Of a stretch of DNA of 64,000 bases, positions 3,481 through 41,500 are shown piece by piece (within the stretch, counting starts at the first letter, position 1; each line of letters begins with the position of its first letter). Below the pieces are notes generated by a model that saw nothing but the letters and a program-made list of their open reading frames with translations, was not told where the DNA came from and did not search any database. This stretch comes from Cymbomonas tetramitiformis (taxonomy: Eukaryota > Chlorophyta > Pyramimonadophyceae > Pyramimonadales > Pyramimonadaceae), in NCBI GenBank assembly GCA_001247695.2, contig LGRX02025990.1:1-64000 (forward strand). The letters are read 5' to 3'. A program made the position numbers and the translations under genes.

Positions 3481-3589
3481 GCACAGATCCTACATCACAC
3501 CCCAGCGCGAGCGGGTAAATTCAATGCAATACAGCGGGTCCGAAGTTTTATCATAACGAAGTTTTATCACCGCAAACCCACGACATCCG

Positions 3590-3728: not shown

Positions 3729-3766
3729 GGCGGTCCTCCTAAGTGGTAAGATGCCAGTCTGCTGCT

Positions 3767-4528: not shown

Positions 4529-4954
4529 CCCGACATATGCCCCGTGCACGGACCATCACCATGACATAGGGAGCTGGAATGCACTAACACGAAGTGTACC
4601 GGCGGGCACAAGGCAGCGAGCGGATAATCGGTAAACGCAAGGTGCCCTCGAGTGGTCCCCAAAAGGATTGGGAACTTGGGATCCCCACAAGGGTCCCCAA
4701 AAGGATTGGCAACAAGTAGCTTCTGGAATCGCTTCACGCCAGCATTTAACATTCCATATAACAAGGAGCTTACGTACGATGATTAGATGGTTAGATCGAT
4801 GGAAGCTTCAACATCCGTTGAGCAGGTGTACTGTACCGAGATCCCGATTGAACGTAGCTCGGAAATCCTACACAAGGAGGGTCGCTTCCCTCTAAATTGT
4901 ACTAGGTCTACGTGACAAGGTGTGCTGAGGCTCAGCGGGAGGACATTCTCATAT
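4529..4954. other. Intergenic, short duplicated motif
   Basis: No gene is seen. A short block (GGTCCCCAAAAGGATTGG) occurs twice, at about 4654 and 4693. Confidence 0.5.
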
Positions 4955-5400: not shown

Positions 5401-5580
5401 TAAACAAGGTGCGGACGGTAAACCTCCAACAAGGTGAGCACGGAACAATACGTCTCCCATAGAAAACCCTCCGTGCACCTGTGTGTTAACCAGCGTGACT
5501 CGTAACATTACCAGATAAAGAATCTCTATACGAGCTCGCACATACCAAAGAACCCCAATACCCCTAGAGACAATTCGAAA
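5345..5580 (-). repeat. Shared OTU 5' segment, copy 1
   Basis: This block matches 8873-9095 over about 230 bp (for example CCGTGCACCTGTGTGTTAA and CGAGCTCGCACATAC). In minus-strand sense it contains the first codons of the short OTU gene and its upstream region, so promoter and first exon were duplicated together. It overlaps the 3' end of the large OTU gene. Confidence 0.7.
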
Positions 5581-8500
5581 ACAGTACCTCGACGGTGTGT
5601 ACACGGGTATCTACCTGGATCTGGAAATGCCTCGATCCGCTCGTAGTGTCCAGGAAACTTATTAAATTGAACGTAATGGGCGACTCGTACCGGTTCACGG
5701 CTAGCCAAGCCCAGTGACGGATGTGGGCAAATATATTTCATGCTGAAAGGCGGCAAGTATTGTGCCAGAGCATCGGTATCGGTGGGAACATTGCACCCCA
5801 CCCCTGGCACGTCGACCATCGGCCACAGAGTGTACACCTGAATAACTCGCCGAAGCATGTTCGCAATGATATGGAGGAACTGCGGTTCGTTGTACGCTTG
5901 GGCAGTAAGCAGGATTCTGCGCAGTGGCGGCCCTCCGTCAGCAAGACGAGCGTCGAGCATCCCGGTGGGGTAAAGCTGCCGATTGAAATCGTACGACGCG
6001 CAGATGGCGTTACGGATGTTCATTGTGAGGACCTTCACGGAGGAACCCTGTTCAAGCACTTCCGGAATGTGTACACCCAAGGCGTGCAGCCAGCAGTTGC
6101 CGTCCCCTTTTGTCTGGACTCGTCGCAGGCCGTGTTTGGCCAAGGCCTGCTCGAACTCCGCGAGAGAAGTAAAACGGTCTGCAGTACCCTCGAGCGGCCA
6201 ATGCACGTGAGCCAGCACGCGACGTGCTAACGGCAGCACATTAGGGAAAATCTCGTCGGGATGGTCGAAGGATGCCTCCAATATACGCCCCCGGGGGTCC
6301 ACGGGCATCAGGATGACGTCATCGGTTCCGAACGAAACACGTGCAAAGTTTGGTGCAAAGTTTGGCGGAACAGCGTTTGGCTGGAAACCGTTTGCGGTTG
6401 CCGCTCGCAATGCCTCCTCAGAAGCGAGATCCATGGAAGGCTCGGCTGCTGCCTTGCTTCTCTGTTGGTTACGGCACGCACCCAGAGCACGCACGCGGTA
6501 CTCCCCATGGTCTTTATGGGATGCACTTGCCCGCACGATGCACTTGCCGGGCATCGCTCGTGACGCATCTCCACCAGTCTCGTATGCACAATCGCATCGC
6601 ACGACGAGGGATCGTGCATGTCCGGGATCCCATCGGTGCGACAGCTTCGCCGCCACTTTGTTTGCGAAACCCAGGTCCAGCTGATCAGGACTTTGCAAGA
6701 GTTTAGCAACACGTATGTTCACATGCAGCCCGCCCTCCGCGTCCGTATGGAACAGGTGTTGTTTCCTGTAGGACTTGTCCGCGCCAAGAGGAATACCGGC
6801 TGTCCGCAGGCGCTGCGCGTTCAACGCGGTAAGCATACCGAACACGACACTACGCAAGCCCCGGCAGCAGACACCCAGTTCCCGGTACAACTGGTGATCG
6901 TCAAAAGATGAGAATGCGTCGTCACGGGTAGCCCGTCGGTCCCAGAGAGCAGTGATGCCGTCGCCAGAGTCCTGCAAAGGCCGCGCCGGCGGACGTTCAC
7001 CAGTTGGATGTTCACCGTCACCCCAAGTCAGGTTGGCGATCCTGTGCTTCACCGTGGCATCCGCGCGTCCCCACGCCTCAGCGCCGAGCACCCCGCGGAG
7101 TTTGTCCCAAGCAAGGCCTAGGTCCTCCACATTCAGGAGTGCATGCAGCTTCGCCTCGGCCTCGTCTAACTGGCAGTAATCGGCCAATGTGGCCGCCTGC
7201 CCCGGGTGCTTCTCATGCGCGGATAGTGGCGCCCGGACTTCAGCTTCGCGCCGCACACGCTGGCACGGACCACACATCACGGCTCCGATAGTACGCAGAG
7301 CGTCATAACCCAGAACGCCTGATCTGCACAGGGAACACGCCCAAACACCTGGCAAGGTGTCGTAGCCTCCCGCAAATCGTATTTCGTCTCCACACGCAAC
7401 GCACATCATGCGGCACGCCAAGCCATATTGCGAGATGACACTGTGCGGGCTGCCGAGTACCGCGTTATTCAGGTCAATGGTTCCCTTAGTACGCACTCTG
7501 GCTGCGGAGTAGATCACGAAGTAGAACTGCTTAGGACGAGTACGGGCGAGCGGGAGGCGCCCACTTGGAGAAAGACCGCGGTGCGCCATGCGGTCGGCTG
7601 GCCAGAACCACAGTGTTCCCATGGGACCCCCGAGGTGAACACGACGGAAGGGAGCCGAAGTGGGATCGCCATGCCTGGAGTTTTGAACCACGCGGCTGTA
7701 ATCCATCGAGCAAAACCTGTCCCAATGGCAGGCCCGCTGCGTTTCGGGTAGCACCTCCGTCAGGCATTGGGCCCTCAGCAACAGGCCACATGAGAACACG
7801 TCGTAATCCGGCCAGCCCCAGGATCCCTTGCCTGCCTTGGGAAACTTGGTATCGGTGTGAAGGAACTGGATTTTGCTCTCGACGTCCCGCCCTAGAGGCG
7901 TCGGGTTGTCGCAGGTCCGCTTCACCACCATTCCCTCAGCTTCAAGAATCCCAGACCGCAGCCTGTCGTCCACAAGGCCATGCTTCACGGTGGTGAAGAT
8001 GGATGGGAATAGCCAGTGCCCAACATGCCAGTCGGCCTGTATGGTATAGCGCGCGCCCTCACCCAGTTCGTGAGATCCAGATGTGAAGTCCGCGCCGATT
8101 TCCTTATGAGAGAACAGGACCTCAGCCTTCAGCAACTGGTAGTCCACCACATACGTCATGAACACGGTGAGCATAGCATTGAACCCGTCCGTGTGCTCAC
8201 TACGTTGCCGCGCGAGCTCATCCTCGCACTCCGTTTTTTCTTGGGTCGCGCGCATCATCGAGGCATCCACGACTTGCACCCAGTCACGAGGGTCGCCCAC
8301 AGTGTCCTCCATTGTAACGCCAGCTGTCCCTTCCTTGGACACCTGAACAACCGGCTTCAACACTCCCTTGCGCCACAGCGCGTACTGTAGTGCTCCCGGA
8401 GGGTAAGCAGGTTTTGCCCAGATGTATCCTTGTGCCACGTACCATACAGCTCTTTCCAACTGGCACTGGCAACCAGGTGCCGGTTGCAAATGTCAATGAT

Positions 8501-9095: not shown

Positions 9096-9235
9096 GAGGT
9101 AGACCATTCATAGGAGGCAGACGCTTGCATATAATAAGCTGGACACTAGCCTTGCAAAAGGTCACCATCCGGTAGGCAAATGCATGTATGTGTAGGTGAA
9201 CACGAAACGAAAACACTTCAAACGACGAGAAGCAG

Positions 9236-10260
9236 GCCACGCTGGCGACGGTATGTCCCCAGCGTGACCTCCGGCTTATATGAAGATCACCCTTTAAAAA
9301 AACAGGGACAAGAGCTCAAGAGGCTTGCATAACCGCCGCATCGTTGCGCGACCGGCCCGTTGGCGATCAGCGCACGCGCTACACGGTCCGCAGAGGATTC
9401 AACACATTAAAAAATGCAACCCGGTGAACACGAAAAATGAAAGACTTCAAACGACGAGAAGCATACCACGCTGGCGACGGTATGTCCCCAGCGTGACCTC
9501 CGGCATATATGAAGATCACCCTTTAAAAAAAACAGGGACAAGAGGCTTGCATAACCGCCGCATCGTTGCGCGACCGGCCCGTTGGCGATCAGCGCACGCG
9601 CTACACGGTCCGCAGAGGCTTCAACACATTAAAAAAGTGCAACCCGGTGAACACGAAAATGAAACACTTCAACCAACCAGAAGCAGGCCACGCTGGCGAC
9701 GGTATGTCCCCAGCGTGACCTCCGGCTTATATGAAGATCACCCTTTAAAAAAACAGGGACAAGAGGCTTGCGTAACCGCCGCATCGTTGCGCGACCGGCC
9801 CGTTGGCGATCAGCGCACGCGCTACACGGTCCGCAGAGGCTTCAACACATTAAAAATGCAACCCGGTGAACACGAAAATGAAACACTTCAAACGACGAGA
9901 AGCATACCACGCTGGCGACGGTATGTCCCCAGCGTGACCTCCGGCTTATATGAAGATCACCCTTAAAAAAACAGGGACAAGAGGCTTGCATAACCGCCGC
10001 ATCGTTGCGCGACCGGCCCGTTGGCGATCAGCGCACGCGCTACACGGTCCGCAGAGGCTTCAACACATAAAAAATGAAACCCGGTGAACACGAAAATGAA
10101 ACACTTCAACCAACCAGAAGCAGGCCACGCTGGCGACGGTATGTCCCCAGCGTGACCGCCGGCTTATATGAAGAACACCCTTAAAAACACAGGGACAAGA
10201 GGCTTGCATAACCGCCGCATCGTTGCGCGACCGGCCCGCGTCGGTATGTCCCCCAGCGTG
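9236..10260. repeat. About 220-bp satellite, array 1 (about 5 copies)
   Basis: A core starting GCTGGCGACGGTATGTCCCC recurs at 9241, 9470, 9692, 9911 and 10129, and a truncated unit follows near 10235, giving a period of 218-229 bp. Each unit contains an imperfect hairpin (CGCTGG...CCAGCG), an A-run, and a GC-rich block (GCGCGACCGGCCCGTTGGCG). The array is bounded on both sides by a similar motif (CCGGTAGGCAAATGCATGT, near 9170 and 10266). ORFs across it are translations of the repeat, not genes. Confidence 0.9.
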
Positions 10261-12494: not shown

Positions 12495-13650
12495 GACGAC
12501 CGCTGGCGACGGTATGTCCCCAGCGTGACCTCCGGCTTATATGAAGATCACCCTTTAAAAAAACAGGGACAAGAGGCTTGCATAACCCGCCGCATCGTTG
12601 CGCGACCGGCCCGTTGGCGATCAGCGCACGTGCTACACGGTCCGCAGAGGCTTCAACACATGTAAAAAAATGAAACCCGGTGAACACGAAAATGAAACAC
12701 TTCAAACGACGAGAAGCAGGCCACGCTGGCGACGGTATGTCCCCAGCGTGACCTCCGGCTTATATGAAGATCACCCTTAAAAAAACAGGGACAAGAGGCT
12801 TGCATAACCGCCGCATCGTTGCGCGACCGGCCCGTTGGCGATCAGCGCACGCGCTACACGGTCCGCAGAGGCTTCAACACATAAAAAATGAAACCCGGTG
12901 AACACGAAAATGAAACACTTCAACCAACCAGAAGCAGGCCACGCTGGCGACGGTATGTCCCCAGCGTGACCGCCGGCTTATATGAAGAACACCCTTAAAA
13001 ACACAGGGACAAGAGGCTTGCATAACCGCCGCATCGTTGCGCGACCGGCCCGTTGGCGATCAGCGCACGCGCCACACGGTCCGCAGAGGCTTCAACACAT
13101 GTAAAAAAATGAAACCCGGTGAACACGAAAATGAAACACTTCAACCAACCAGAAGCAGGCCACGCTGGCGACGGTATGTCCCCAGCGTGACCTCCGGCTT
13201 ATATGAAGAACACCCTTAAAAAAACAGGGACAAGAGGCTTGCATAACCGCCGCATCGTTGCGCGACCGGCCCGTTGGCGATCAGCGCACGCGCTACACGG
13301 TCCGCAGAGGCTTCAACACAGTAAAAAAATGAAACCCGGTGAACACGAAAATGAAACACTTCAACCAACCAGAAGCAGGCCACGCTGGCGACGGTATGTC
13401 CCCAGCGTGACCTCCGGCTTATATGAAGAACACCCTTAAAAAACAGGGACAAGAGGCTTGCATAACCGCCGCATCGTTGCGCGACCGGCCCGTTGGCGAT
13501 CAGCGCACGAGCCACACGGTCCGCAGAGGCTTCAACACAGTAAAAAAATGAAACCCGGTGAACACGAAAATGAAACACTTCAACCAACCAGAAGCAGGCC
13601 ACGCTGGCGACGGTATGTCCCCAGCGTGACCTCCGGCTTATACGAAGAAA
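12495..13650. repeat. About 220-bp satellite, array 2 (6 copies)
   Basis: The same unit as in array 1; cores start at 12502, 12725, 12943, 13164, 13384 and 13603 (period 218-223 bp). Copies within the two arrays are very similar, including a shared subtype difference (AACCAACCAG versus AACGACGAG), which points to exchange between the arrays. Confidence 0.9.
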
Positions 13651-14385
13651 CGCTTAAAAAGCTAAAAATGCACAAATGCTCCGGTGCCGGCGTTTACCTT
13701 AGCGGGCCCAACTAACCCCGCGCCCCGATGTGCGCCACCGGGAGCCTGAACATCGCCCGCATCAGTTTACTCACACTTAAAATAAACGAAGATTCTGTTC
13801 CACAATCTGCACTTACCGCGTTATTAGCAGTTCGCGGTTGCTTTCCAGCAGTCGCCAAGTTTGCGCTCCACTGGTCATCCATCTGTTATGAACGAACACC
13901 ACGCAACCCCACCCTTTGGTTTGCAGTCTATAAACGCGTGGATAAAAATATACGTAACAGCGACCGTGCAACGATTTAGCACCTTACAAATTTTACAGAC
14001 TCGGGTTTCTCTCGTAACAAATATATTATATATGCTGGTCTGCTCGGGCAGAACGTCAGCTCAGAAATGATTTCGCAAGCTACCTACGTCCAACTATCGT
14101 TCCATCCTACGTACGTAGCTAGATAGGTCTTAATAAGGTCTTCATGCGTTTGGTGTTCGCGGATGCACCTATATCTACCGTAGATGATCCTGTCGATCGT
14201 CGATGGGTATGGGCGTTGTCAGTGGCGACTGCATTTTGAAATGATTATCTCGCCAGGACACCCACATCACGGTGGCTGCGCTGGGTATTAACACTTTTCA
14301 AATGCATCGGCGAAACAGGCGTGTGTTCTGGCTCCAATATAATTCGCAGCAGCGTGATTATACCGCGATTAACAGATGCAGCCTT
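13651..14385. other. Intergenic, no gene seen
   Basis: AT content rises here. Only short frames without family resemblance are present. Confidence 0.5.
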
Positions 14386-16099: not shown

Positions 16100-17530
16100 G
16101 TGGAGAGACCCTACCAATAAGGACGGGTCCATGCGGTCCCGGGACCAATAGGGACCCCGCATGGACCCCATATGGACCCGTAGGGACCACATGGACCCCA
16201 CATGGACCCGTGAAAAATGGATCACATGGACCCGTCGATGAAGCCTTCGGGTTTTTACCACTAGATTGGTCCAAAAATCCCTATCGGTCCGGGGTGGGTC
16301 CCACACGTGGTACCACTGATTTCTCGGTCCATGCGACATTTCACCATGGGTCCATGCGGTGTTTCGTCGGTCCATGTGGGGTCCATGTGTCCATCGAAAT
16401 CTCACCACGGATTCCTCGACGCTGGCGTGGGGGACCTCGCATGGACCCGTAAAATGTATGGCCATGCTTTAAGGCAGCATGTGGTGCATGGACCGACCCT
16501 AGACCGACCCCGGACCGACCCCGGACCGACCCTGGACCAAACATGATCGCTCGGACCCAGGTTGGACCCGTTAAGTTCAGCACGGACCAAAACCTCCGAT
16601 AGGCGCCCAACCGTACGGACCATATATGGACCTCGCGTGGACCCCGCGCGGACCCCGCATGGACCCATGGGTGGAGCACTCGAGATGGACTGCACGGGGG
16701 AGGCGATGCGTGGACCTCGCATGGACCCCGCATGGACCCGGGAGTGGCGCACCCAAGATGGGGTGCGTGGTGAAGGCGATGCGTGGACCTCGCATGGACC
16801 CAGCATGGGCCCCGCATGGACCCGTAGGGTGGCACACCCGAGATAGACTGCGCGGGGAAGGCGATGCGTGGACCTCGCATGGACCCGTGGTGTGGCGCAC
16901 CCGGCAACCATGGGTTGCGTGGTGAAGGCGGTGCGTGGACCCCGCATGAACCCCGCATGGACCAGTGGGGGGCGCACTCGAGATGGACTGCACGGGGAAG
17001 GCGATGCGTGGACCTCGCATGGACCCGTGGGGTGGCGCACCCGAGATAGACTGCGCGAAGAAGGCGATGTGTGGACCTCGCATGAACCCGTGGGGTGGCG
17101 CACCCGGCAAATGGGTTGCGTGGTGAAGGCGATGCGTGGACCTCGCATGGACCCCGCATGGACTAGTGGGTGGAGCACCCGAGATGGACTGCACGGGGAA
17201 GGCGATGCGTGGACCTCGCATGGACCCGTGGGGTGGAGCACCCGAGATGGCTGGGGTGCGCGGGGAAGGTGATGCGTGGACCTCGCATGGACCCGTGGGG
17301 TGGCGCACCCGAGATAGGGTGCACGGGGAAGGTGATGTGTGGACCTCGCATGGACCCGTGGGGTGGCGCACCCGACATGGGTTGCGTGGTGATTATTATT
17401 TTGTGGGTCCATACGATTATTCGGCAGGTCCATGCGGTTATTAAGTGGAGTCCATGTGACAAATATACCGCACGGGGAAGGTGATGCGTGGACCTCGCAT
17501 GGACCCCGCACGGACCCGTAAAAATATTTA
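16100..17530. repeat. 'ggacc' satellite field with 60-80-bp higher-order units
   Basis: Dense repeats of CATGGACC(C) and its inverse GGTCCATG. From about 16680 to 17500 they are organised in units of roughly 60-80 bp, each starting near GCGATGCGTGGACCTCGC (16700, 16780, 16860, 16930, 17000, 17063, 17129, 17201, 17270, 17333, 17481). The field begins right upstream of the start codon of the gene at 14601-16080. The long ORFs across it on both strands are repeat translations. Confidence 0.9.
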
Positions 17531-17709
17531 CACTGTACATATGTTACAAGTTTTGTCGGTAAGAAACGGTTGCTAGCATACTAGTAATATCATCATACAT
17601 CGAAAAAAAGAGGTATACAAAAGGTCCCCGATAGGTCCAAAGCGGGTCCAGTGCGGGTCCAGTGCGGGTCTACGACGGGTCCAGCGTGGGTACGCTCGAG
17701 GTCCATGCT

Positions 17710-18072
17710 TCAAGCGGCGTGATCGTCTTCATCGTCAGCAACTTCACCAACAAAGTCAACGGTCCGGTCCAGAACCACCGCCAACAATATACCGGGCTTC
17801 TCTCTGATTCTCATAGGCAGTCGGCGGCGGTTCGAGGGTTTGATTGCTAACCGCTTAGGCAGCCACGGTATTGGCACGATGCAAACCTGGGACTCAATTT
17901 CTTCAGCTCGGATAATAGAATCCTTCGTGGCCCATGGCAAGTCGGTACATAGAAATACGGTATGGCTGATGGGGTCAGCGACAGCGGCCTCTTGATGAAA
18001 CCACCTAACTTTCACAAAAATGAATGGGTCGTGGCCGTGGATCGACATCTTGAAGACATCCAGCAACTCCAC
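17710..18072 (-). CDS. Last exon of CACTA-like transposase (DUF4216-like region)
   Basis: A 120-codon minus-strand frame beginning VELLDVFKMSIHGHDPFIFV, followed by KVRWF and SQVCIVPIPWLP and ending with an acidic tail and stop. The pattern (a short segment on the element's own 'Ile/Leu' strand, then V-W-F, then a region on promoter-like positions) resembles the C-terminal DUF4216 part of En/Spm (CACTA) transposases. It lies 14 bp beyond one LTR of the element at 18086-27992. The rest of the transposase is on the other side of that element (28232-29644), so the two pieces were probably one gene. The exon phase at the junction does not fit perfectly, so the exact splice sites are uncertain. 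Confidence 0.5.
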   Translation of the reverse strand: MELLDVFKMSIHGHDPFIFVKVRWFHQEAAVADPISHTVFLCTDLPWATKDSIIRAEEIESQVCIVPIPWLPKRLAIKPSNRRRLPMRIREKPGILLAVVLDRTVDFVGEVADDEDDHAA

Positions 18073-18085
18073 GTACCTGATTCAT

Positions 18086-18626
18086 TGATACGGCGGGATA
18101 AACAGGCGCCGTGAATATATTATCAATATACAAATAAACACTGCAAAGTTGGACAGCAATGCGAGTGTACGTAATAGCGGGTTGTGAGTGCAGTCTCTGT
18201 AAGAAGATCTGCTGAAGCACAACGCTTCCTCACTTTTGTACCATACGTCTCCCATCATCTTAGATAGTACCGCCATTGGGTTGTGAACCCGAGACGTAGG
18301 TTGAACGACCAGTATTGTAATAACGACTAGTTCGTTCATACTGCGCATGCGTGTTCCGCACATGCTTAAAAGCCAAGATGGTTCTTGTTTGTATTCAAGA
18401 TGTATCTTTGCTTTGCCATCTTCGAGTTCGACGTACGAACTCTCGATGACAGGGATGACAGATGATGTGACATTATCATCTGGCGACATGTACAGTCATC
18501 GTCGACCGTACTGACGACTGTCATAATAATATATGACACGACATGACATGACATGGTATGACATGTCTGACAGGTATGACACGTATGACATGTATGACAC
18601 ATATGTCATCGGTCATGACCCTGACA
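18086..18626 (-). repeat. 3' LTR of the LARD-like element
   Basis: 541 bp. On the plus strand it starts TGATACGGCGGG and ends CATGACCCTGACA. It contains a short TGACA/TGTCA-rich tract near 18540-18600. ORFs inside it are shared with the other LTR. Confidence 0.85.
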
Positions 18627-18639
18627 GATCTCCCCTCTT
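18627..18639 (-). other. Polypurine tract
   Basis: AAGAGGGGAGATC on the minus strand, immediately upstream of the 3' LTR. It matches the form of PPTs in Copia-type elements and sets the orientation. Confidence 0.7.
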
Positions 18640-19499
18640 AAAAGAGTTGTGACCTCACAACGGGCATACCTTTGTATATGTCTATGATGTCTTTGTTGTT
18701 GTCGCTTCTTGCTGGTACCAGTCTTCTTACACCGATTTGAGGCGTCCCTCATGGTGTTTTTAGGTTATTGGGGGGAACTGAGTCCACTTTAGTCCCTCAC
18801 CTTAGGCATTTAGCCCTACAGTTCTTAGGATGTAGCCCCCATGAATTGCGTATCGTATTTCAGAGTGACGTTTCAAGGTATCTTCCGAGTTTTACGTTAC
18901 GGATAGATATTTGCGCTTGCCGTCGACACTCGATGATCGACGATTTAACGAACGATTCTCGGCTATAATGCATCCACCTCTTCCTCCCTTCAGAGAGCTT
19001 ACTCGCCCGAAGTTCACAGGAATACTATGGAGAGCCCCTTTCGAATATTCCGAAATGGCTTCTTTTTAATGCAGCGGAGGAGGCCCTGCTTACGAGATAT
19101 CGGAGGGTCTTTGTAAGTCCACTTTAAATCCTCACCCGCCTGCCAAACTCCTTTTTTTTTCGGTCTGGTACGCGCGCTTTGACGAACATCTATCGCGATG
19201 AGTGAGAATGGATTCGCCACGTACTAATGTGAAATTTGTTTAGTTATGTTTGTCAAGCACAACTCAGGATCACAACTCCGTCTACCTCAATCTCCGGTAG
19301 CTGCGGATGATTGGCCAAAAGTCCGATGACAAACCACGGCTGGCAAAGGTAGCATTAGCAGTTTTTCACAGATATTGGTACCCGCATATGCGTATCTGTG
19401 TAAGGGTATGATTTATACAAGGCTCACTACACCTTAGCAAGGAAGGATCAATTCCTGCTCCTGTCATATCAATTTGATGCAGGGTAAAAAATGTTAGGG

Positions 19500-19620
19500 A
19501 TATAACCCTGCAGTTCTCGGGTTGCAGCCCATTGCACCGAAGGTGCATCGCAGTCTTTGGGATGCAGCCCTGCAGTTCTTGGGATGCAGCCCTGCAGTTC
19601 TTGGGATGCAGCCCTGATAT
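19500..19620. repeat. GGGATGCAGCCC short repeat cluster inside the LTR element
   Basis: Four tandem copies of a roughly 25-bp unit (core CAGTTCTTGGGATGCAGCCC). Related degenerate copies recur at about 18815, 20998, 23125-23190, 23978-24060, 24530-24600 and 25750-25830, always as small inverted-repeat-rich islands. They are the only clear internal structure of the element. Confidence 0.7.
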
Positions 19621-22600
19621 ATATATGTGACCGATGGACGAAAACCTCTTGGGTACATGTTTCCACGGCCTGATTATTATTTGGTCGGCAATTATTGGCA
19701 AAAGTCATCGGCTATCAGCTTTTGACTTAGAAGCCACAATGTTATAGAAGCTGCGACCTATTGTAACCATATGCAGCAGTTATGCCTTCAGCATACGTAG
19801 ACAATATGATTATGTGGAACTTATAATCCCACTTAAGTTGCATCATGATACATTTATCCAGGTGTTAACAAGTGTTCAGGATTTGATAAGGGGTTGACGC
19901 CCCACAAGCCAGAGGTCACTGTCTCATAAGGCTCGGCCTCAAGTGTGCGGCTTTGAGGTTTAGCGTCCTAGCGAGGCACAGTCATGATGCTTCCTAGTCC
20001 ATAATGGAGCTGGAAATGAGAATGCTCAAGATATCCGAAGACAGGAAGGCTTTTGGTTGGCCAGTGTTACTGTCAAGATGCTTAACCTTGATGGAATGGC
20101 ATTCGGATACAAACTGTGCAACCATGCATGTGACTTATGCATTGGTGTATGACTTTGATGAATTGTCTCTTGTCATGAACCTGGAAGGAATGACGGGCAA
20201 ATAGCTAGAGTGGCGGATTTACTCACTCGGCTTTGCTGTTTATGGAATTCGATGCCTGATGGCACAACTGGCAATCCTTTGCTCAGATGCTTTCCTTAAG
20301 ACATTGGCAACAACTTGTGTGCCAGCTTCTCTAGATTTGGGGAGAAACCATGGATCAACAATTTATCAATCAAAACACATGTATCAAGGTTGATTCATCG
20401 AATCTTTCAACTCTTGAATTTCGACAATCAGCATCTCAGGCTGTTGACGTCAAAGTGATGGTCGTAAGCTTACAATATAGCTTATTCACATTTGAAAAAC
20501 CATCGTTCTCCAGTGTCAGTGCCCTTCATATAATATGATAGAGCCGGAGAATATGTATCTATGATTTCTTCATAATGAACTTTATGTGTCAATAAGTCAA
20601 ATAAGACTTCATTTGATGTTTCAATCGGCATGATGTACCGTGTCATCAACTTTATGGCTGCTATACACAGATGCTGGAACTTTTGATAAGATTTTTAATC
20701 TTCCAAGCAAAATCACAATGATGTAAATCAATTTGTGGCAGCTGTATGAAAAATGAATGAATCTATACTCTTCCTCCCCCTCGCAAAAAGAGATGTATCA
20801 AACCAATCAGATGGTGATGGAGGATGTCATTCAATCATTATGTTATGTGAAAAAATGGTTTGATAGAGAATCAGACTGAGATTACTCATCGAATGCTTTA
20901 GAGGTAACAATGTCAATCTGAACATTGATTCTCTCTACGTCATATTGGCAATATGCCTGACGTTTTTGAATGTGGCAAATGCCAGATGATGTCAAATGCA
21001 GTTGTTGGGTTGCAGCCCACATACTTTGTCAGTTCAGGGTCACTATAGTGTACCCAACTTAGACAATGGTTCTGGATAATGATTGTCATGATGAACAAAG
21101 AAATCAGTACCGAAGTTAACTTTGGTATCGAAGCTAATGGAGAGTCAATCAAGAAGTGTCCGTAATGACAACAACTTACTACGAGTTGTATTTTCGTAGT
21201 TGATGGATGGCTGACATGTCATTTCATTATGAATAGAACATGGCATTGCCTAGTGATATGTGTATATTCTTCAGCACATGATCACTTATTTCAATGGTGC
21301 CCATTTTATTTTGGGCTAACACTATTCAGAGACTTGTTATGATAAAGAAGTATGAATGATGAATGTGTCATTTCAATCCGATAGAATTGTGACTTGTTTT
21401 ATGACTATACAATTTCTGTCACTTTCCAGAATGAGGATGAACTGTGCTTGGAGACCGTATGCAGATTGCGGGTTTTCCAAGACTTCGTGGCCTAATGGAT
21501 GAGGCAACAAATTTCTAAACATTCCCGAATGAGCTTTCAAAGAGTCTTTATTCTTCAATGAAGCATGCTTGTCTTATGTGCCAAAATGTTATGAAATTAC
21601 AAATATGGTGTCAATCTATATGTGGATGGTTTATACCATTGTATGTTATTCCACAAATAAATAGTGATGTCAGAATAAAACTTTGGACAATTGCAACTTA
21701 GTACAAACCCGAGTGCATTCAAGTCCATTCGTATGCTCAGAATCTGAATCTAATGTGCTTTCTATATGCACAGGATCGAACATTTTTTCTATGCGATTCT
21801 GGATTCAGGAACTAGAGTCAATGTAAAAGTCTTTTCATATTTCAGACGATGAAACCCTTATTCCCTTAGGTGCAATACCTTATTGTAAGGAATAGTCATT
21901 TTCAATACAAGTCATAATCGATTTTCTCAAATCTGTCACTTTTATGATGATCAGATTGGTCAACTTTACAACATAACCACTTCCCCTCGCTGAAGGAGAT
22001 GACTCCCATCATAGGGCGGTATATTAGCTATTTTCATATGACACTGAAAAACATGAATAACTCTTGGAGAATTTTGGGATAAACATCCTGGATTGGCTGT
22101 GCTTGATTGCTCTATGCCCAAGAATGACCGAAGAGATTGCTTGCCATTTTTCAGCCATATAGCGTGGAGGCTGCTTAACAACGGTTGGGTCATAAGCTAA
22201 ATAGCTATGTCAGCTATGTCGGAGGCTGAATAGCCATGATTGCACAGACTCTGTCTTTCATGATGAATAGACCTCTGAGAAATGGTGTCTGAAAAAATTA
22301 ATTGACAACAACTCAACCTTTTGGTATGATGTAGAGCTGATGATCTTTGTTGCACTTCAATTGTTTAATGTGCACTAATGAAATGCCTCGTGATATATAA
22401 TCTCACAGAATAGGCATTGCTCAATGGCGATATGATCAGATATGTAATGATCAATGAAGACAAGATGGTTGGTATGGCTCATTCAGCAGGCTTAATTACC
22501 TCAAAGAGATGCCAATACACGGATACATATCAAGACATAAGGGCAATAGGCTTATTGTATAGCCTTCAAGGCAGCTAGCATTTATGCTGCATCGGTCAGC

Positions 22601-24689
22601 TCGGTGGCTTTGACCTTTCTAGGTGTTGTACTCAGGCCGTGGCCTGCATATTGCATTGAGTAATCTTGACACCTGTAATGATCCAATCAGATGACATGTA
22701 TGAAGTATCAAGAATGGTTGCCCTTTTCAATGATCATCGGTGGCAGAGGCTATAGTGCTTGCACCGTGTCAGTATACAATTCTAGTCTGGATACATGCTA
22801 GACCAGATGTATACAATGTCTAGGTCTTCAAAATCAAGCTCATATGAATGTCATGGCTGATGTATGTGTCAACTTTCATGGAGTTCTGCATGGTTTGACT
22901 GTATATAGTCAGGCTTACCAAAACAAAAACAATGATGCAACTTACTTGTTTTATTATTTGTCTTTATTATTATTTATTCATTTGGTTTTTAGTTGTATTT
23001 CTAGCTTATCATCTTCCCCCCTCAAGGAAATGTATTGCTAGGCGGTTGTCAAGCGCCGTTCAAATACAACAGAGGTCCGACCTCTATGTGATGACGTGAT
23101 AGCTTACTATGAAGCTGGATAGCAGTTCTCGGGATGCAGCCCCTTGCACCGAAGGTGCATTGCAGTCTTTTGGATGCAGCCCGAATTCACGTCATCAGCG
23201 TGGGTCATATAGTGCCCAAGCATGTGCTATATATATACAACACTACCCTCCAGCGAAGTGGTTTGCTATTACCATCATAATATGCTGTGGGATATCAAAT
23301 ATATGATCAGAGAGCATGGTAATATGTGTACCATGTTTGTCAATATCGGAGAGACTGTGTCTTCCTTAAAATCCTCATGACTATATGTATAATGGTGCTA
23401 TACTGATGTCAACACCTTTACTCTGAGTGATTTATTGATTTCAGATGTGATTTCGTGGCAAAAAATATGTCCACGTCATTGGCACGAGTCATGTTGTGTC
23501 CATGCATACACGATCTTAGCGCAGGTCACAATACAGTGCCCGAGCATACGCGATTTTAGCGTAGGTCACATTGTGCCTCTGTTTATTACATATGAGAATA
23601 TATGTTACTCATCTTTGTGAGTCTAGACAGCATTGTGCTGATTGCAATGCTTTCTCTGGTGACTTATATATCACTGATTATACCTAATGTGGTGATCAGT
23701 CCAGTGCAATATTTTGTCACCGGGATGTACAGGGATTGCGAATGATTGCAATCCAGCCGGAGGAATAATCCCAACAGCTTATTCTGTACTAATGAATTCA
23801 TCGGAGTTATACTCATTTCGACGATTCTAAAACCCATGTCATTGTAGTGATGACAACTCATGTGAATATATAGGGTTTTTATCAGAATGCTTTTATGTGA
23901 TGTTAACATATTATGAACAATTCACTTGCATCTCAGGACAAAGGAGTTACGCTTGGAAGGTCTTGCATGGTGGTCACCAACAGTTATCAGCTGTTATTCG
24001 GGTGCCAAATTCTGCCTTTAGCACTGGGACTATATCAACCAGTCTTACAGCGATGCACTTGTCCTTCCCACTCTTATATACAGCTATAGTGCCAAAGTAT
24101 ATCAGGTGGGATATATATATATATACAATATATAACTATCATCTTCTGATCCAGGAAATGCAATTAAGCATGGTATCAGGTTATATGTTATGTATATAGT
24201 TCAGCATTCCAAACTTACTCGAGAATGTAAATGCTGAGCAAGAGTCAACTTATAGTCATTGGGATATAGTTTCCCATCCGAGTTTACACTTTGTTAGTGA
24301 TGGTGGATTTTAACGTTGTACAGATTTCAACGTTACTTGTGGATGCAGTGATTTTATCAAAAGCAATCCATCATAATCACCAGATCGGAAAAATGGATAT
24401 GTGTATAATCCTATCCACCTTTTTCCCCCTTCGAGGAAGTGTGAACACATAGGCAGTCAGTTGCCTATATACCTCATAGCTTATAACTTATAGATTATAG
24501 CATGCAGTCCTTATAGGAAGCAGCTGTTACAGTTTTAGGGTTGTTGCCCAACAGTTCTTGGGTTGTTGCCCGACAGTTCTTGGGTTGTTGCCCGATTTAT
24601 AATCATGTCTGTGTCGAAAACAGCATGATATGTTAATGCTAAATACGAAGTTTATCGAAATTATAGTAGTATTTTAGGGCATGTCATGT

Positions 24690-25200
24690 TACAGTGGCCC
24701 ATATACCCAATAGTATGATTAGGGTGTTACATGGGATCTGTAACCCTAAAATAGGTAAAAAATAAGCAGTATGATTTTTTTGCAAAGGTTTTTAAGCAAA
24801 ACTGCATTTAATACCTAAATAAATGTAAGGTGGTTTTCAGAGGGTACGTTACACCCCTGAGACACACATTTAATTTTAGGGGTGTTACAGGGTGTTACAA
24901 GTGCTGTATAAATCAGGGAATATTCAGATATAGCTGAATAATCAGATCAGCAAAAAAAATCCACACACATTTTTCATTTTGAAATCATGCGTGGGAGTTT
25001 TTTACGTATTTTGTTACAGCCAACATGTATACCCCTATATATTACACACCTAATATCTAGGGTGTTACACGAGATATGACCATGGTCATTATGTTTTTCT
25101 GATACCTAAATAGGTATAGAATCATAATATAAAATAAAATGGGCACACATTTTTCATTTTGAAATCATGCGTGGAGCATTTTTACCCATTTTACAGCTTT
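24690..25200. repeat. GGGTGTTACA and CATTTTTCATTTTGAAATC repeats
   Basis: Several GGGTGTTAC motifs occur near 24721, 24890 and 25070. A block with CATTTTTCATTTTGAAATC occurs twice (24967 and 25147), suggesting an old internal duplication of about 180 bp. There is no coding potential. Confidence 0.55.
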
Positions 25201-27435
25201 TTCAGCTATCTGATATATTGCCTCGGTGACATATCTCAGTGTATATGTGGAATGTAAAGTACAGAATCACTGCAATAAACTTCACTTTGGCACATGATAA
25301 ATTTCATGGCAAATAAGTGAATTGTGCTGTATATCAACATCTGTGGTTGATAGCATTTTTGGGTTTTACTGATTTAAACCCATAGCAGTAAATGTACATT
25401 CTGGTGATATATAAGTTATCAACTTAAGTGGGAACATCCAGTTAGGAACATCCACTTTAGTGATATTTGTCAATCTATGATCTGTTCTGAGCATAGGTCT
25501 GTGCTCTAAGATTTATCAAAATGATATTTCTTATTTAGAACATATCTGGACATTGCTTGATACAATCACAGCAATTTAACACAACACATTTGTATGTGTG
25601 TGTTCTCCTTAACAACTATTATCAGATGTCATGTAGATACTGATCTGAGAGTTGCATGCATTTGAACTGATCAGATCTGAATCAACTGTCAATATGCAAC
25701 GTAGTTGTTGTTATTGCTCCAGCGATGATATGTGGAATGACGAGTGGACTGCACCCAACAGTTACCAGCTGTTTCATGGGTGCAGTATCTTGCCTTCGGG
25801 TCTGGAGATAACTCCATCCAGCCCTACAGCATCTTGTCTTATCCTGCTCCCTTATCTATCGCAATCATTGACATTTTCCACGCACATGTGTTTGGAAAAT
25901 GGTATGTACATTATCATACACATAGTAGATATTTAAATTAATCAATTCACTTTGAATCAGTGAATGTTAATACATACAATGCAGTGTGTGTGTATGCATG
26001 CAGTGCTTACTGATTAGCACTTTTGTCAGTGTGTGTGTGTTAACTTTTACACACTTTACAGTAGGATATGTTCTGGATATTACAATATCCTAGACAATTC
26101 ATCATGTAAGATAGTCAGCATACCATGCACTGAATACATCTAACATGATATATCAAGTTTAGGGATTATTGTAATTCCATAATAATCTCATTACAAAATG
26201 AGTTGCTGGATAGATTTCACATGAAGCTCAGGTGAGCATTCCATCCAGTAATCCACCATAGAATGTAATGTGATCTGAAGAGCATCTCGGCTCCACCAGG
26301 ACATGACAAGCTAATTATGGTGTTAAGACTACTTTCAGGCACCTTATACTATCATGGGTTCTAATATAATTTAGCATGCACTGCAATATGCTTATGCAAT
26401 GTTCATGTATTACAGCATGATGCTAGTATACCAGTTGCTAACGTGATCAAACTGATATATATATGCTACAGCTGTTATCGTGGTCAAGCTGCATTGATAA
26501 ATCATGCACAATTCACAGTATTGCAGTCACTCAGCATATAATGTACATGTGGTAAATGCTGAATGCACTCTTTATGTACTGCATGTTGGTGAACTGCAAG
26601 TGAGTATGTGTGTATATGTATGTGTGCATGCTGTAACCATTGAAATCTCCGCACACACATTACTATGCTTCTGATAAGCATGAACGCTGATGATTATTCA
26701 TGATCTGTCACGTTGAGTATGTATCCACAACAGCATAACGATCATGTATCCACAACATCCCTGCAAGTATACAATCATTATGCAGATGGTTTTGACGCGC
26801 GTACACATATGTATGTCTCACTGCATGTAGACACATCAGGAATCGTACGCGCTAAAATCGAGCGTTCATCGCATCTGATGAAATCATGGAAAATGCATAT
26901 CGTGCTGACAGGCTAAAAATCATTGTACGCGCTGGTTATTGTAAACAGTGCGAAGGGATCATTTGCAAAAATCGCTGATGTACGTCGCATACTGCTGATT
27001 GCTGATGTACGTCGCATACGAATGCGAGCGCGCTGTTATATGAAATTATGTACGTCCAGTCGCACTTGATGAAATCATATGTGCTGACGATCATTTTATG
27101 TGCGCGCATCTGCATCTCGTATACTGTGACATTCCTGCAATTTTTGACATCACTGCATGCGTTCGTACGCTGTGCGCACACCTTGTCGCGTATAAAATCA
27201 AGACGACTTCTCTGCTGACGCTATTTGCTGCGATTATGTTTGCGATGAAAAATCTCCTCGCGCAATCTCTGCGCTGTCGATATGCAAGCGTATATTATTC
27301 AAGTTGCAGATATTCAATATCACTGCGAGCGCTGTCGCTTATGCGCCCACCTGCAAACCTGCGAACAATATGAAAATATACTACGTCTGTCGCTGCACCC
27401 ACTTGAGTTCTCGAGTATCGTGCCTTGACGAGTTT

Positions 27436-27449
27436 CTTTTAGAATACCA
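27436..27449 (-). other. Candidate primer-binding site
   Basis: On the minus strand TGGTATTCTAAAAG begins two bases after the 5' LTR. TGG pairs with a tRNA CCA end. The first six bases equal the usual iMet PBS, but the rest differ, so the tRNA is not identified. Confidence 0.45.
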
Positions 27450-27451
27450 TC

Positions 27452-27992
27452 CGATACGGCGGGATAAACAGGCGCCGTGAATATATTATCAATATACAAA
27501 TAAACACTGCAAAGTTGGACAGCAATGCGAGTGTACGTAATAGCGGGTTGTGAGTGCAGTCTCCGTAAGAAAATCTGCTGAAGCACAACGCTTCCTCACT
27601 TTTGTACCATACGTCTCCCATCATCTTAGATGGTACCGCCATTGGGTTGTGAACCCGAGACGTAGGTTGAACGACCAGTATTGTAATAACGACTAGTTCG
27701 TTCATACTGTGCATGCGTGTTCCGCACATGCTTAAAAGCCAAGATGGTTCTTGTTTGTATTCAAGATGTATCTTTGCTTTGCCATCTTCGAGTTCGACGT
27801 ACGAACTCTCGATGACAGGGATGACAGATGATGTGACATTATCATCTGGCGACATGTACAGTCATCGTCGACCGTACTGACGACTGTCATAATAATATAT
27901 GACACGACATGACATGACATGGTATGACATGTCTGACAGGTATGACACGTATGACATGTATGACACATATGTCATCGGTCATGACCCTGACA
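27452..27992 (-). repeat. 5' LTR of the LARD-like element
   Basis: Second 541-bp copy, about 99 percent identical to 18086-18626 by eye. Followed on the plus strand by TTCAT. Confidence 0.85.
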
Positions 27993-28231
27993 TTCATCAG
28001 TATAATTCTGGGTGAAAATGGAGATCGCCTAAATAAACTGAACGAATACAACAAGGGCAACATGATTGTGGTCCCCAATAGGCCGGGGTGGGGGCGAGAA
28101 TGGGGGCACGCACCAGTCCTGGTTTTCGTATTGGGGAGTGCGAATGCCGTCAACCATTTTGTGTCCAACAAAGATATCTCCGAACTTCACAAGCATGTAT
28201 CACTGCATACTCTCCTTATCATGGTCCTTAC

Positions 28232-29644
28232 CACGAGCTCTGAAGATGCTACGTCCAACCTTGACATAACTGTACCGCAAAAGTCGTGGCGGTGGCGAGG
28301 TAATGAAGTTGATCTCTTCCGTGGTAAATTGTTTCACGACCATTCCTTCGCCATGAGGGTTCGGCTCCTTCCTCCACGTGCTGGCGTCCTCGAAGGTAGG
28401 CTCTACCAGACGCAACGGGGCAACGGGGTTTCCAGCACGTCGTTGCCGACGGACACGTTGTTGATGTAACCTGTTTTGTGAATCAGGTGAAGACATTAGT
28501 CCGATGCGGGTCCCGTGCCGGTCCTGCGTTCCGCCCCCATGGGGACATCCGATGGTTCCAACAAAGGACGAGTAGCAAGCGCGACAGGCTGTAAAAGTGA
28601 TGCAAGTGTGGGTACAAACCGTCGAGATCGCTGATTTCCCGCCCTGATGCGTGCTGAGCCAATTCAAACTGATGTCGAAGTTCGGCAAACCAATCGAAAT
28701 GAAGCAGCAACCAGGATTTGATGTCCTTAATGGTATCTGAAGCCCAAAATATCGAACTTTATTTTAAGATTGTAGCTAGCATGAAATCGAACTGCAATAC
28801 ATGGGGCGGGGCCGGGGCGGGATATAGGACCGACGGGTCCGGCATGTTGACTCAACAGGGGCGGCACGGTATCACATACCTTCTGATAGCAGTGTGTTCT
28901 TGCCTTGACGCTCCACTCCGGATTTGAGCATCATTGAAACCCGCGAAGGTTCGGGGAGTGGATATACAGGTGGCCTCGATCCTCGCGCCAAATCGCTCAA
29001 CCCGCGACAAAGGTTTACGAGGCGCTCCAACTCTATATTCTTCATGATGCTGGCCACCGGACTCGATCGCGTTTTGACCGCACGCTTCATTCGGCCAAAG
29101 TAGTCCTCGAAGCAAAACATCCATAGCTCACGTGCTGGACCGTACATCATGAGCTGCGGCACGACATGAGTAAGGAGATGCTGCATCATCACCAAATCGG
29201 CTGGTGACATATGATCTTCACCAAGCTTTAGGACCACTTTCACTCTCTCAATGAGACCTGGCATTTCCTGGAAAAGGCAAATATCAGATCTCAAAAAGAA
29301 ATCGTATGGGTACAATATAAATGCGGACCTACTATGGCCACGTGGGTACTAAATCAGGGAAGCACCCCGCCCCCGTCGGGGCGGGGTGTTGGACCTTCAA
29401 AAGAATTGTAGGGAGAGGTTTACCTTCAGAAGAATTGTAGGGCTGACAACCTCACGAACGATGGAGCATATCTCCCCAACATAATCCGCGTGCAAAGGCC
29501 TTTCCACGAGCCCATCCCGACCAGACCAGCTCGAGAGAACATGCAAAACTCCTGAAGTCATCGCCGTGATGCCCAATGCCGCCTTCAATCTTCGAGGAAT
29601 GAAATTCTCGTTAGCCTTCAGTTGCATAAGCTTCTGAGCCAGTG
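28232..29644 (-). CDS. CACTA-like transposase exons (DUF4218 region)
   Basis: Four exons are visible on the minus strand: 29644-29424, 29267-28880, 28736-about 28510 and 28470-28232. Donors include GTAAAC, GTATGT and GTAAGG; acceptors are TTTCAG, TTTCCAG, CTTCAG and AACAG. Exon 2 carries MSPADLVMMQHLLTHVVPQL, then MYGPARELWMFCFEDYFGRM and the spaced SPVAS, matching the DUF4218 region of En/Spm transposases (H...H, GP, W-M-x-F-E). The catalytic Tnp2 part should lie upstream (higher coordinates) but is not recognisable. The last donor, at 28231, opens the intron that holds the LTR element, and the C-terminal exon is then at 18072-17710. The gene is probably inactive. Confidence 0.6.
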
Positions 29645-38534: not shown

Positions 38535-41500
38535 GCGGCAAAACAAGTCCTAAAGGAGCACCCTAAGATCGCCATTGCCCCGACTACATCCACAATAGTG
38601 TTCCTAGTGGTAGCGCTCATTGGCGTTTTCGTGGTAGCACACTCTACTGAAACATCCGAACAGGAACAATTAGATGAGGAGCTTGCTCTGTCCCAGTTGC
38701 TCTATGCGAAAGAGGAAATCATCATCCAAGACGAGTATCTCCGTACGAAGGCATCGACCGATGAAATGGCAACTGCACTTGTGGACGGCCTTGAGAGGGT
38801 ATTCTTCTGCCAGATTAGAACACCTTTTAGAGCTAGCGAGCTCCCCAGCTTGCGTGGTCCCCAGTGCACCTTCTAGCTTGAAATCTGTATGTCCAAGCTA
38901 AGGTTTGCGGCGTACTTCTATGCAGTCTAGCTAGGCAATCCAAATCCCAAGCAAAAGCGCAAAGAATCGTGCCTATTTGGGTCGCACTACGATCGTATAC
39001 CCTAGACGGCGGGAATCAAAGCCTTCAACACACACGTGGGGGCATCCTACAATAATGCGGGCTGTGTGGAGATTAAGCCTTGTGTGCGCGCCAAAACAAC
39101 CCTTCTGACCCCTCCAACCCCCCGGAAACTGAATCGCCATTTACCGACTGCGCCTATTGCTGCCGTGTGGGATCATTCAATGCACCCTGCCGCTACCATC
39201 TGTCGCAGCCTCCCCCTTTTGTAGCTTGAGGTGAGTAGCGGCGACTCTTTGCGCCGTTTGTGTGCCCTCCTATCACTTTCCTTGTACCCAAGCCCACCCT
39301 CGAATAATGACCTTGATGATTGTAAACATGTTTTGAACTACTGACCATAGATACATCGATGCGGCCCAGGCTTACGCGCCGCTCAAAATGCTGGAGTTGT
39401 ACGTGCGTCAGAACCCGGTATACCCATACATCGAAGATAACTTCCCGGCGATTGCAGCCGACGTGATGGATGTAGCCGACCTTCCGGGGAAGGCATACAC
39501 TCTTGGCATCGCTCCCTTCGCTGTAGTTGCAGACAAGTATCCCTTTGGGAATAATGCGGGTGCCATCGGGCATGATAATCTCAACCACTGTCAGGTGCCG
39601 TCCCAACCCTGCTTTGGTTGCTAAGGGAACCACTTCAGCACGGTCAGTGTCTAGTGGCAAAGGTTTCAGCATAGATAGTAGGAGGAAAGTGTCCACTTTA
39701 GTGGGGGATGCATCTGTAGCCGAAAGTTGCGTGATCAACTTACGGGCAGTTTGGGAAGGACTGGACCGGGAGAGAGGGTTGAGGCATGTGCAGTAGAGAA
39801 TCAGTCGAAGACTTCGAATGGAAAGGGGAGTAAGGTGGCATGAAGGCACACCCGGAGATATACAAATAGCTCGAAGCTCGCGTCATTACCAGACACCTAA
39901 GTTCCTCTCCATTCAGTTCATGAAAGCAAAGGGCTTTATCCACAAAAAAAACCACCGTACATTCATATTGAATCACCATCCCTATGCTGGAGGGCGGATC
40001 CATCCATCACCATCCCTATGATGGAGGGCGGATCCATCCATCACCATCCCTATGATGGAGGGCGGATCCATCCATCACCATCCCTATGCTGGAGGGCGGA
40101 TCCATCCATCATCCCTATGCTGGAGGGCGATCCATCCATCACCATCCCTATGCTGGAGGGCGGATCCTTCCATCACCATCCCTATGCTGGAGGGCGTGAT
40201 CCATCCATCACCATCCCTATGCTGGAGGGCGGATCCATCCATCACCATCCCTATGCTGAGGCGGATCCTTCCATCACCATCCCTATGCTGGAGGGCGGAT
40301 CCATCCATCACCATCCCTATGCTGGAGGGCGGATCCATCCATCACCATCCCTATGCTGGAGGGCGGATCCTTCCATCACCATCCCTATGCTGGAGGGCTC
40401 TTCCTGTTTACTCACGGGTGGGGCACATTTGTCCAGTATGCCAAGGCATGCCAAGTGTTTGGCCTGTGCCACTGCCTTGTTGGTCTCACCTGCGCCTGCT
40501 GCTTGCCGTCGCTTTGCCGAGACTGCCTTGGACACCTGGACGGGCGGGGCAGCTGCTGTCGTGTTCAACTGGGGCAGCTATTCAAGTCCACATACATGCT
40601 GCAGGAACGCCTCAGAGCGCATTCACGCATGCGTGCATGTCACGTGCAAGATTCTCCAAATCCCTATATCGTTGAGCGTTGTAGTGCCAGTTTAAATGTT
40701 GAATGTGATACATAAGTTGCTTACTAGGGTCCCCTACCACTCCATCCACTTGATTGAATACTGTATTCACTCTGCAGCCCAAATTTGCATTTGAGCAGGT
40801 TGTGCCGGACGAGAAAATGGAGGCCACTAATAATGGCACAGACTGCAGTCCTGAGTGTGGGTTGCCGAGCGAAACTCGGTGCTACCCAAGCCGACGTGCC
40901 ATCACGTATCTGTCGGTGGAGACCAGGATGCTAACCCTGGATGGCCCTGTAACTCTTGTCCAAGGAGGTTATGCGTTCATTATGCGGCATCCGATTTTTG
41001 TTAATGTGAGCGCAGACCCATTTGGAGTTGGACAGTATAACGAAACCTTTGGTCGAAGTTATGCAGCTCACAACTGCACCGCCCCTGTGTGCTACAACGA
41101 GACGTCAGGCTTGCGCTACTGGGGGCAAGCAGACAGCCTACTCAGTTTCCAAAGGTAATCGATGCTTTCGGTTTGTATGTACCGCCGGATTCACATTTTG
41201 CGGTCATTTTGCGAGCTGCATGAACATTCCACAGTAGATGGCGGTTGTGAAGCAGACGGGTTTTGTAAGGTACCAGCCACAAGAACTCTCATAAAAATAG
41301 AATCGTCTACTATCCCGTAACGGCCCAAGAAAGAACTCAAAATATATATCAAGCGGCAAATAGACAGCGACCAAGAATCTCATCGCTGAGGCTGCAACAA
41401 TTTGGATGTTTGAATTAAGCAGCGAGTGCCAGGTAGATGTCACCTGATTCTTTTGACTTCTGAATGAAGTGATGGAGTTGTGTTGTGTGAGTGGGCATAA

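Follow-up and report, generated by a model that had tools for sequence, protein, structure and literature searches.

Large non-coding derivatives of long terminal repeat (LTR) retrotransposons that occur with an autonomous partner are known from the barley large retrotransposon derivatives (LARDs), with LTRs of about 4.5 kb and interiors of about 3.5 kb, and from the rice Dasheng/RIRE2 pair. Among green algae, TOC1 of Chlamydomonas is an LTR-type element without coding capacity, shorter and with split repeats. A soybean autonomous/non-autonomous pair with LTR swapping was reportedly the subject of work by Du et al. in 2010, to judge by its title as cited. Partnerships of this kind have been described in wheat (PMC9744471, PMC11302176), and the portion of the source at hand bases cross-mobilization of autonomous and non-autonomous RLG_Cereba and RLG_Quinta on identical primer-binding sites (PBSs) and LTR termini (PMC11302176). 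Here we analyze an element at positions 18086 to 27992 of a 64,000-nucleotide stretch of the Cymbomonas tetramitiformis genome (contig LGRX02025990.1; this whole stretch is called the window below). The element is the LARD-like half of a non-autonomous/autonomous pair, a kind known in plants, and sequence comparison makes it very probable that it is a non-autonomous LTR retrotransposon mobilized in trans by a Ty3/Gypsy chromovirus family resident in the same genome. The genome does contain a partner that shares the element's signals, young copies of the family are numerous, and some copies are chimeras of the autonomous and non-autonomous kinds.

Structure of the element and its autonomous partner

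The element reads on the minus strand, because its candidate PBS and polypurine tract (PPT) both sit there. In that direction it runs from the 5' LTR (27452 to 27992) through the PBS candidate TGGTATTCTAAAAG (27436 to 27449, two bases inward of the right LTR), a 2.9-kb 5' leader (24573 to 27451), a 5.1-kb non-coding middle (19463 to 24572), a 0.84-kb 3' region (18627 to 19462), and the PPT candidate AAGAGGGGAGATC (18627 to 18639, immediately inward of the left LTR) to the 3' LTR (18086 to 18626), with an interior of 8,825 bp between the LTRs. The LTRs are 541 bp each and align with exactly 5 mismatches, all transitions, and no indel (Kimura two-parameter distance [K2P], 0.0093), in agreement with the roughly five differences counted in a preliminary description of the locus, which also correctly reported TTCAT on both sides, the target-site duplication (TSD; 18081 to 18085 and 27993 to 27997). 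Its TG...CA ends hold for the left LTR, but the right LTR starts with CG at 27452 through one of the five substitutions; its PBS and PPT candidates both exist, with their orientation now corrected to the minus strand. Near-identical direct LTRs, a TSD, a PBS after the 5' LTR, and a PPT before the 3' LTR mark the element as an LTR retrotransposon.

Copies were sought in a genome assembly of 851.7 Mb in 25,745 contigs. Only the best candidates of each search were scored, the window's own loci among the 40, and the matches are therefore lower bounds on copy number. With the LTR as query, scoring of 40 of the 3,332 candidates gave at least 77 matches. All 40 scored places matched the leader end (26780 to 27451; 99 to 100% identity, best 40 of 2,012 candidates), the middle (21100 to 22900; 94 to 99% besides the window, some part-length, best 40 of 2,752), and a pol probe (99 to 100%, best 40 of 2,982), the last of which indicates that the partner has many recent copies.

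Seventeen further loci were fetched and compared with the window. Eight carry all or part of its middle (C25632, C5820, C23596, in which it is inverted, C22153, C21084, C12552, C11998, and C24104), identity between the window and other non-autonomous copies being 92 to 99%. Four are of autonomous type (C23274, C715, C21758, and C19565); these share the LTR and the 3' region with the window, and all except the shortened C19565 have the leader as well, with different sequence between the shared ends, about 5.6 kb of it in C715. Identity to the partner reaches 96 to 97% in the 3' region and 96 to 99% in the leader far from the PBS, and the left LTR of C715 matches the window LTR at 98.5% over the 465 bp that aligned as a single block. 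Two further loci, C515 and C24551, represent shortened forms, and in C12592, C18660, and C4773 matches were seen to the leader and LTR only. Fourteen of the 17 loci, of both autonomous and non-autonomous kinds, have the 14-base PBS without any change, and 10 have the exact 13-base PPT, several of the fetched stretches ending short of it; one base of the PPT is changed in C19565.

The coding block of C715, which sits between the shared 3' region and the leader, has minus-strand Pfam matches to Retrotrans_gag (3e-8), RVT_1 (1.4e-33), RNase H (4e-24 and 6e-25), Integrase_H2C2 (1e-17), and Chromo (2.8e-7); protease, zinc-knuckle, and rve matches fell below curated cut-offs. With reverse transcriptase (RT), RNase H, and integrase in order and a C-terminal chromodomain, C715 is, by its predicted domains, a Ty3/Gypsy chromovirus. 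Long frames also occupy the middle region of C21758, C23274, and C19565; the Pfam scan covered C715. The first named relative of the C21758 pol outside Cymbomonas (best 120 of 1,617) is a Closterium protein with a PF00385 chromodomain, at 36% identity.

Coding capacity is missing from the interior of the window element. Its longest stop-to-stop frame has 122 codons, against a shuffle mean of the maximum of 121.9 (standard deviation, 19.8); the preliminary description was right about the lack of coding, but its ceiling of 111 codons depends on requiring a start. A profile search of the kind that it had suggested found no retroelement domain of Pfam in twelve X-masked half-interior frames, the sole match being DUF6589 (E 0.074), under its cut-off. 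The same X-masked approach did recover gag-pol when applied to the partner and, in other parts of the window, DUF4218 and Guanylate_cyc. Of 13 alternative genetic codes tried, 11 gave no frame longer than 310 codons, and the 2,941-codon frame under tables 27 and 28 is an artefact of Biopython, which translates dual-meaning stop codons as residues. For every middle frame of at least 75 codons, one or more other copies have stops or indels that interrupt it. Two leader-end frames (109 codons, plus strand; 94 codons, minus strand) stay open in the 10 of 11 loci where the region is present, an observation of little weight given the near-identity of the DNA there. A long interior without gag or pol coding capacity, many copies with a common interior, and an autonomous partner in the same genome (C715) with common LTR, PBS, and PPT bear out the non-autonomous, LARD-like nature first proposed for the element, and supply both the further copies and the partner with matching LTRs for which a search had been advised.

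Two short decayed pol fragments lie in the middle, both on the minus strand and both found with tblastn. One is an RT/RNase H part at 21925 to 22372 (E 2.8e-4 for 21925 to 22320 and 0.002 for 22220 to 22372), 68.6% identical to the partner at the DNA level over 22059 to 22349; the other is a C-terminal pol/chromodomain fragment at 22523 to 22858 (E 6e-11; 73.6% DNA identity). Their order is reversed relative to the partner, the chromodomain piece lying upstream of the RT piece. Protein comparison found no gag remnant (best E 2.8), and two stretches resemble the DNA of the partner's leader/gag border at 66 to 71%. A reversed-sequence control for the remnant search gave nothing below E 0.8.

Recombination between copies and the origin of the middle

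LTR-pair K2P distances were low in the other non-autonomous copies measured (0.0050 in C25632, 0.0033 in C23596, and 0.0091 in C22153) and in two autonomous ones (0.0047 in C715 and 0.0033 in C19565), and reached 0.0224 in the deletion form C24551. TSDs are perfect in six of the seven elements measured, the window element included, and that of C19565 agrees at four of five bases. C5820, C23274, C515, and C21084 were left out of the dating since one LTR end could not be located in the fetched sequence, and C12552, C11998, C24104, C21758, C12592, C18660, and C4773 fall outside it.

The leader end is more uniform among copies than the middle. The three pieces of the middle differ by 2.6 to 7.6% between the window and C5820, C23596, C11998, C12552, and C24104, against 0 to 0.3% for the same five copies in the 672 bp nearest the PBS; the window is as close there to C715, C23274, and C21758. 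The middles of C25632, C22153, and C21084 are 97 to 99% identical to that of the window. The leader end is 99.3 to 100% identical to the window in 16 of the 17 loci (C19565 covering 41% of the region, C24551 at 99.4%), and 99.6 to 100% in 7 of the 8 middle-carrying loci and in three partner copies.

Within a few bases, C11998 passes from 91% identity to the non-autonomous kind to 99.6% identity to the autonomous kind, at window-equivalent position ~24,485, about 227 bp before the leader, and C12552 passes from 95% to 99.5% at ~24,204, about 186 bp before it (both distances counting in the shared island unit described below). Beyond the switch, the best autonomous match of both copies is C21758. 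The switch is at the last unit of the island at 24528 to 24594 (window position 24,573) in the window, C25632, C22153, and C5820, so that there are at least three different junctions. The sharp switches in C11998 and C12552 fit recombination with the partner.

These observations are consistent with a model in which the element has retained the cis parts of its partner, namely the LTRs, PBS, 2.9-kb 5' leader, 0.84-kb 3' region, and PPT, the 5.6-kb gag-pol region having been replaced by 5.1 kb of non-coding DNA with decayed, reordered pol remnants. Its RNA would be packaged and reverse-transcribed by the partner's proteins, and its ends would be refreshed by template switching between co-packaged RNAs, which would make the middle look older than the ends. 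The interior is long because the leader and the 3' region of a chromovirus have been kept.

Several results weigh against this model. With the one T-arm-plus-acceptor pattern tried for the primer tRNA, matches were found at 2 places, against 5 in a backward control, with no tRNA gene at either. C21084 carries the middle, yet it has no leader-end match and its far leader is 90.9% identical. The tree tests gave a weak and mixed signal. In the leader tree a non-autonomous clade was not rejected by the approximately unbiased (AU) test (p-AU, 0.255), and neither was the middle's clade when imposed on the leader (p-AU, 0.137). An autonomous clade, however, was rejected for the leader (p-AU, 0.012), and the leader's pair imposed on the middle was not rejected (p-AU, 0.333). 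The chimeras, moreover, could also stem from gene conversion between chromosomal copies.

Homogenization of the ends by chromosomal gene conversion or ectopic recombination, instead of template switching in shared particles, would likewise yield sharp switches, and donors would seem plentiful, given first-look candidates in the thousands. We nevertheless consider it unlikely, as conversion tracts would need to span whole leaders and both LTRs, and ectopic crossing-over would not preserve the TSDs seen intact in six of seven elements. Selection alone might in principle preserve the identity of the leader end, but it leaves the sharp switches unexplained. A different history, in which a single autonomous chromovirus copy lost its gag-pol by decay in place after insertion, would provide for the two pol remnants and for a depletion of CpG in the interior (observed/expected ratio [o/e], 0.44 over 19800 to 26650). 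The partner's gag-pol, however, is also depleted (0.54; L028), and the depletion is therefore a trait of the whole family's body and not a decay mark of the window copy. The LTRs differ by 0.9%, while the remnants are only about 70% identical to the partner, and the same non-coding middle recurs at all 40 scored places; with young LTRs and diverged remnants, this means that the middle was non-coding before it spread. Decay in place is accordingly highly improbable, and the close match of the LTRs together with the copy number rules it out as an old insertion. The LTR has a CpG o/e of 1.19, the 3' region one of 0.96, and the 0.7 kb adjoining the PBS one of 1.57, against 0.3 to 0.5 in the rest of the leader and the middle, a pattern of CpG-rich ends and CpG-poor body that may reflect body methylation.

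It is also very unlikely that an LTR element here has captured host or organelle DNA as its interior, or carries a cluster of RNA genes such as small nucleolar RNAs (snoRNAs). GC and CpG are lower in the interior than in the flanks, three matches of snoRNA or small Cajal body-specific RNA type were obtained from Rfam, and the minus strand has an excess of the D-box word (58 against 39.7; standard deviation, 6.9). Those three matches are far under their gathering scores, which no Rfam match reached in 17500 to 28500; C boxes and plus-strand C/D pairs stay within about 1.5 standard deviations of shuffles, and the minus strand has 3 C boxes where 7.0 would be expected. D-box enrichment without C boxes, with Rfam below threshold and C/D pairs counted on the plus strand, led us to reject a snoRNA cluster, and captured DNA is opposed by the lack of any Pfam match at cut-off in the interior and by the pol remnants in the middle. 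An assembly artefact joining unrelated sequence between two LTRs has a negligible probability. The window does contain a gap of 711 Ns (about 32.0 to 32.8 kb), which lies elsewhere, and C25632, C22153, and C21084 carry the same near-identical middle with the island units in the same order, the first two with TSDs of their own. In all, the eight further loci with the middle in whole or part dispel the misassembly that the preliminary description had named as one way in which its reading might fail. Mobilization in trans by the chromovirus family, with ends renewed from the partner, thus is the explanation that we favor.

Island units, variant copies, and window surroundings

The interior contains islands built of a 20- to 23-bp unit, 11 copies of which occur in the window element. 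An island of four GGGWTGCAGCCC units lies at 19509 to 19615, a single unit at 20997 to 21019, an island whose two units surround a TGCACC-GAA-GGTGCA hairpin, closed by TGATGACGTGA/TCACGTCATCA, at 23121 to 23183, and one of three units at 24528 to 24594, where identity to the partner is 97% from the third unit on and 71% just before it. With at most one mismatch allowed, the window has 7 occurrences of GGGWTGCAGCCC, where 0.8 would be expected, and all lie inside this element. Hairpins had been predicted for the islands, and two of the three larger ones indeed fold better than shuffles on both strands (z, -2.4 to -3.7), but the third folds weakly (z, -1.5 and -2.0) and the single unit gives no signal (z, +0.8 on one strand).

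Counted on both strands, units number 11 each in the window, C25632, C22153, and C23596 (ten of the last inverted), ten in C21084, nine in C11998, eight in C5820, and, in the partial stretches fetched, four in C12552 and four in C24104. The autonomous copies C715, C23274, and C21758, all with a leader, have two each and the shortened C19565 has one; C515 and C24551 have one each, and the stretches of C12592, C18660, and C4773 have none. Of the partner's units, one lies exactly at the leader start, on the very margin of the leader, and one in the 3' region. A packaging role, as the preliminary description had suggested, would predict islands in the partner's leader; since they are mostly absent from the partner, and folding is uneven, that suggestion finds no support. 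We also considered, as a rather doubtful idea, that the islands are recombination (strand-transfer) sites at which the element renews its cis signals by docking on partner RNA, the unit having been multiplied to 11 in the non-autonomous lineage. In the window's group, the change from old non-autonomous to young autonomous sequence coincides exactly with a unit. On a plain count we rejected the islands as a general hotspot of breakpoints, the junction at 24,573 lying at a unit and those at ~24,485 and ~24,204 off units.

Dense hairpins across the whole interior were likewise rejected, since its 14 perfect stems do not exceed the 9.7 of shuffles, of which 12 in 100 reached that count, while certain stretches outside the element do exceed theirs. 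Mean folding z scores are -0.76 on one strand of the interior and -0.92 on the other, against -0.35 in plus-strand control windows, and the lowest scores lie at about 23.0 to 26.5 kb. Bacterial matches to the island pattern (L001 and L002) resemble chance 20-mers; beyond them, the interior matched only over short stretches.

In C23596 (L019/L020) intact ends flank an inverted middle, which corresponds to about 19.07 to 26.76 kb of the window; the LTRs of this copy differ at 2 of 601 positions, and its TSD is perfect. C12552 has 2.4 kb of extra sequence (L034:6692-9093) at window-equivalent 26739 to 26757, flanked by a 19-bp overlap and without a Pfam domain, and the inversion endpoint of C23596 coincides with this site. 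C24551 (L031) is a shortened element in which element positions 1170 and 7321 are fused directly, inserted in the leader of another copy with a 5-bp TSD.

Each LTR is crossed by a minus-strand frame of 137 to 140 amino acids (aa) (27439 to 27861 and 18082 to 18495). This frame has seven relatives in metagenome protein sets, at 62 to 83% identity on contigs of 0.6 to 2.7 kb, which are perhaps LTRs of the same or kindred algae. The LTR had no match in a plasmid collection, and one exact island pattern and one exact LTR-end pattern had none in viral_contigs, phage and metagenome collections lying outside these searches. A minisatellite of ATGACA type lies at the LTR edge (18540 to 18611).

Joined across the insertion site, the flanks have frames on both sides and no single open frame through the site. 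The element is adjoined by a relic with DUF4218 (about 29.0 to 29.3 kb, minus strand), a domain that we take to mark CACTA-type transposons. Farther to the left, two adjacent MYND-finger frames (2209 to 4555, minus strand) contain two 140-bp DNA stretches at 87 to 88% identity, which suggests a tandem duplication. A 988-aa frame (5526 to 8492, minus strand) has no Pfam match. Scoring of 7,991 candidates gave it two relatives at E <= 1e-5, both C. tetramitiformis proteins with the source name OTU domain-containing, one 95% identical over 71% of the query and the other 88% identical over 60%. Two arrays (9195 to 10238 and 12501 to 13660) have 218-bp and 221-bp units with common sequence and within-array matches of 94 to 97%. 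To the right, pieces of a CHASE/guanylate-cyclase-type gene (40754 to 45200, plus strand) enclose a 35-bp minisatellite; one cyclase match in Pfam reaches 2e-16, and CHASE and another cyclase match are under cut-off. A retroelement gag-like frame (46079 to 47267, plus strand) with a weak zinc knuckle below cut-off (E 0.068) is followed by a 1.2-kb array of a 42-bp repeat.

Comparison with known autonomous/non-autonomous pairs

The window element differs from the barley LARDs in its proportions, with LTRs of 0.54 kb and an interior of 8.8 kb. Because LTRs measure 541 to 689 bp in seven elements, and not several kilobases, we call it LARD-like and not a LARD of the barley type. No title or abstract met in searches of open-licence literature describes this element, supplements being outside the scope of those searches. 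In the available part of a report on a long-read C. tetramitiformis assembly of 914.3 Mb, 68.3% of the sequence is interspersed repeat and 43.6% is unclassified interspersed repeat, and another chromoviral pol of Cymbomonas is called related to Chlamyvir (PMC10675990). Domain-less elements like that of the window may help to explain the content of such a repeat-rich algal genome.

As far as the sources at hand extend, several plant systems are comparable. The window pair resembles Cereba/Quinta in that an autonomous element serves a non-autonomous one and recombination between lineages is inferred, but Quinta has a gag open reading frame and is shorter than its partner, whereas the window element lacks coding and has a middle of about gag-pol length (PMC11302176). 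Non-coding regulatory sequences have been homogenized between partners among the pararetroviruses of grass genomes (PMC5491270), and recombination in bursts is described for Onsen of Arabidopsis (PMC5668417). Long-term coevolution of autonomous and non-autonomous LTR elements is a further likeness: in the text available on Angela, the LTR tree differs from the internal tree, LTRs cluster with those of the partner, and gene conversion or template switching is proposed. Homology in Wilma, Sabrina, and WHAM, by the same limited account, is down to a few motifs, in contrast to the window pair, in which the 2.9-kb leader and both LTRs are near-identical. These comparison cases are all from flowering plants, and to them the window adds an autonomous/non-autonomous chromovirus pair of a green (prasinophyte) alga in which chimeras are visible.

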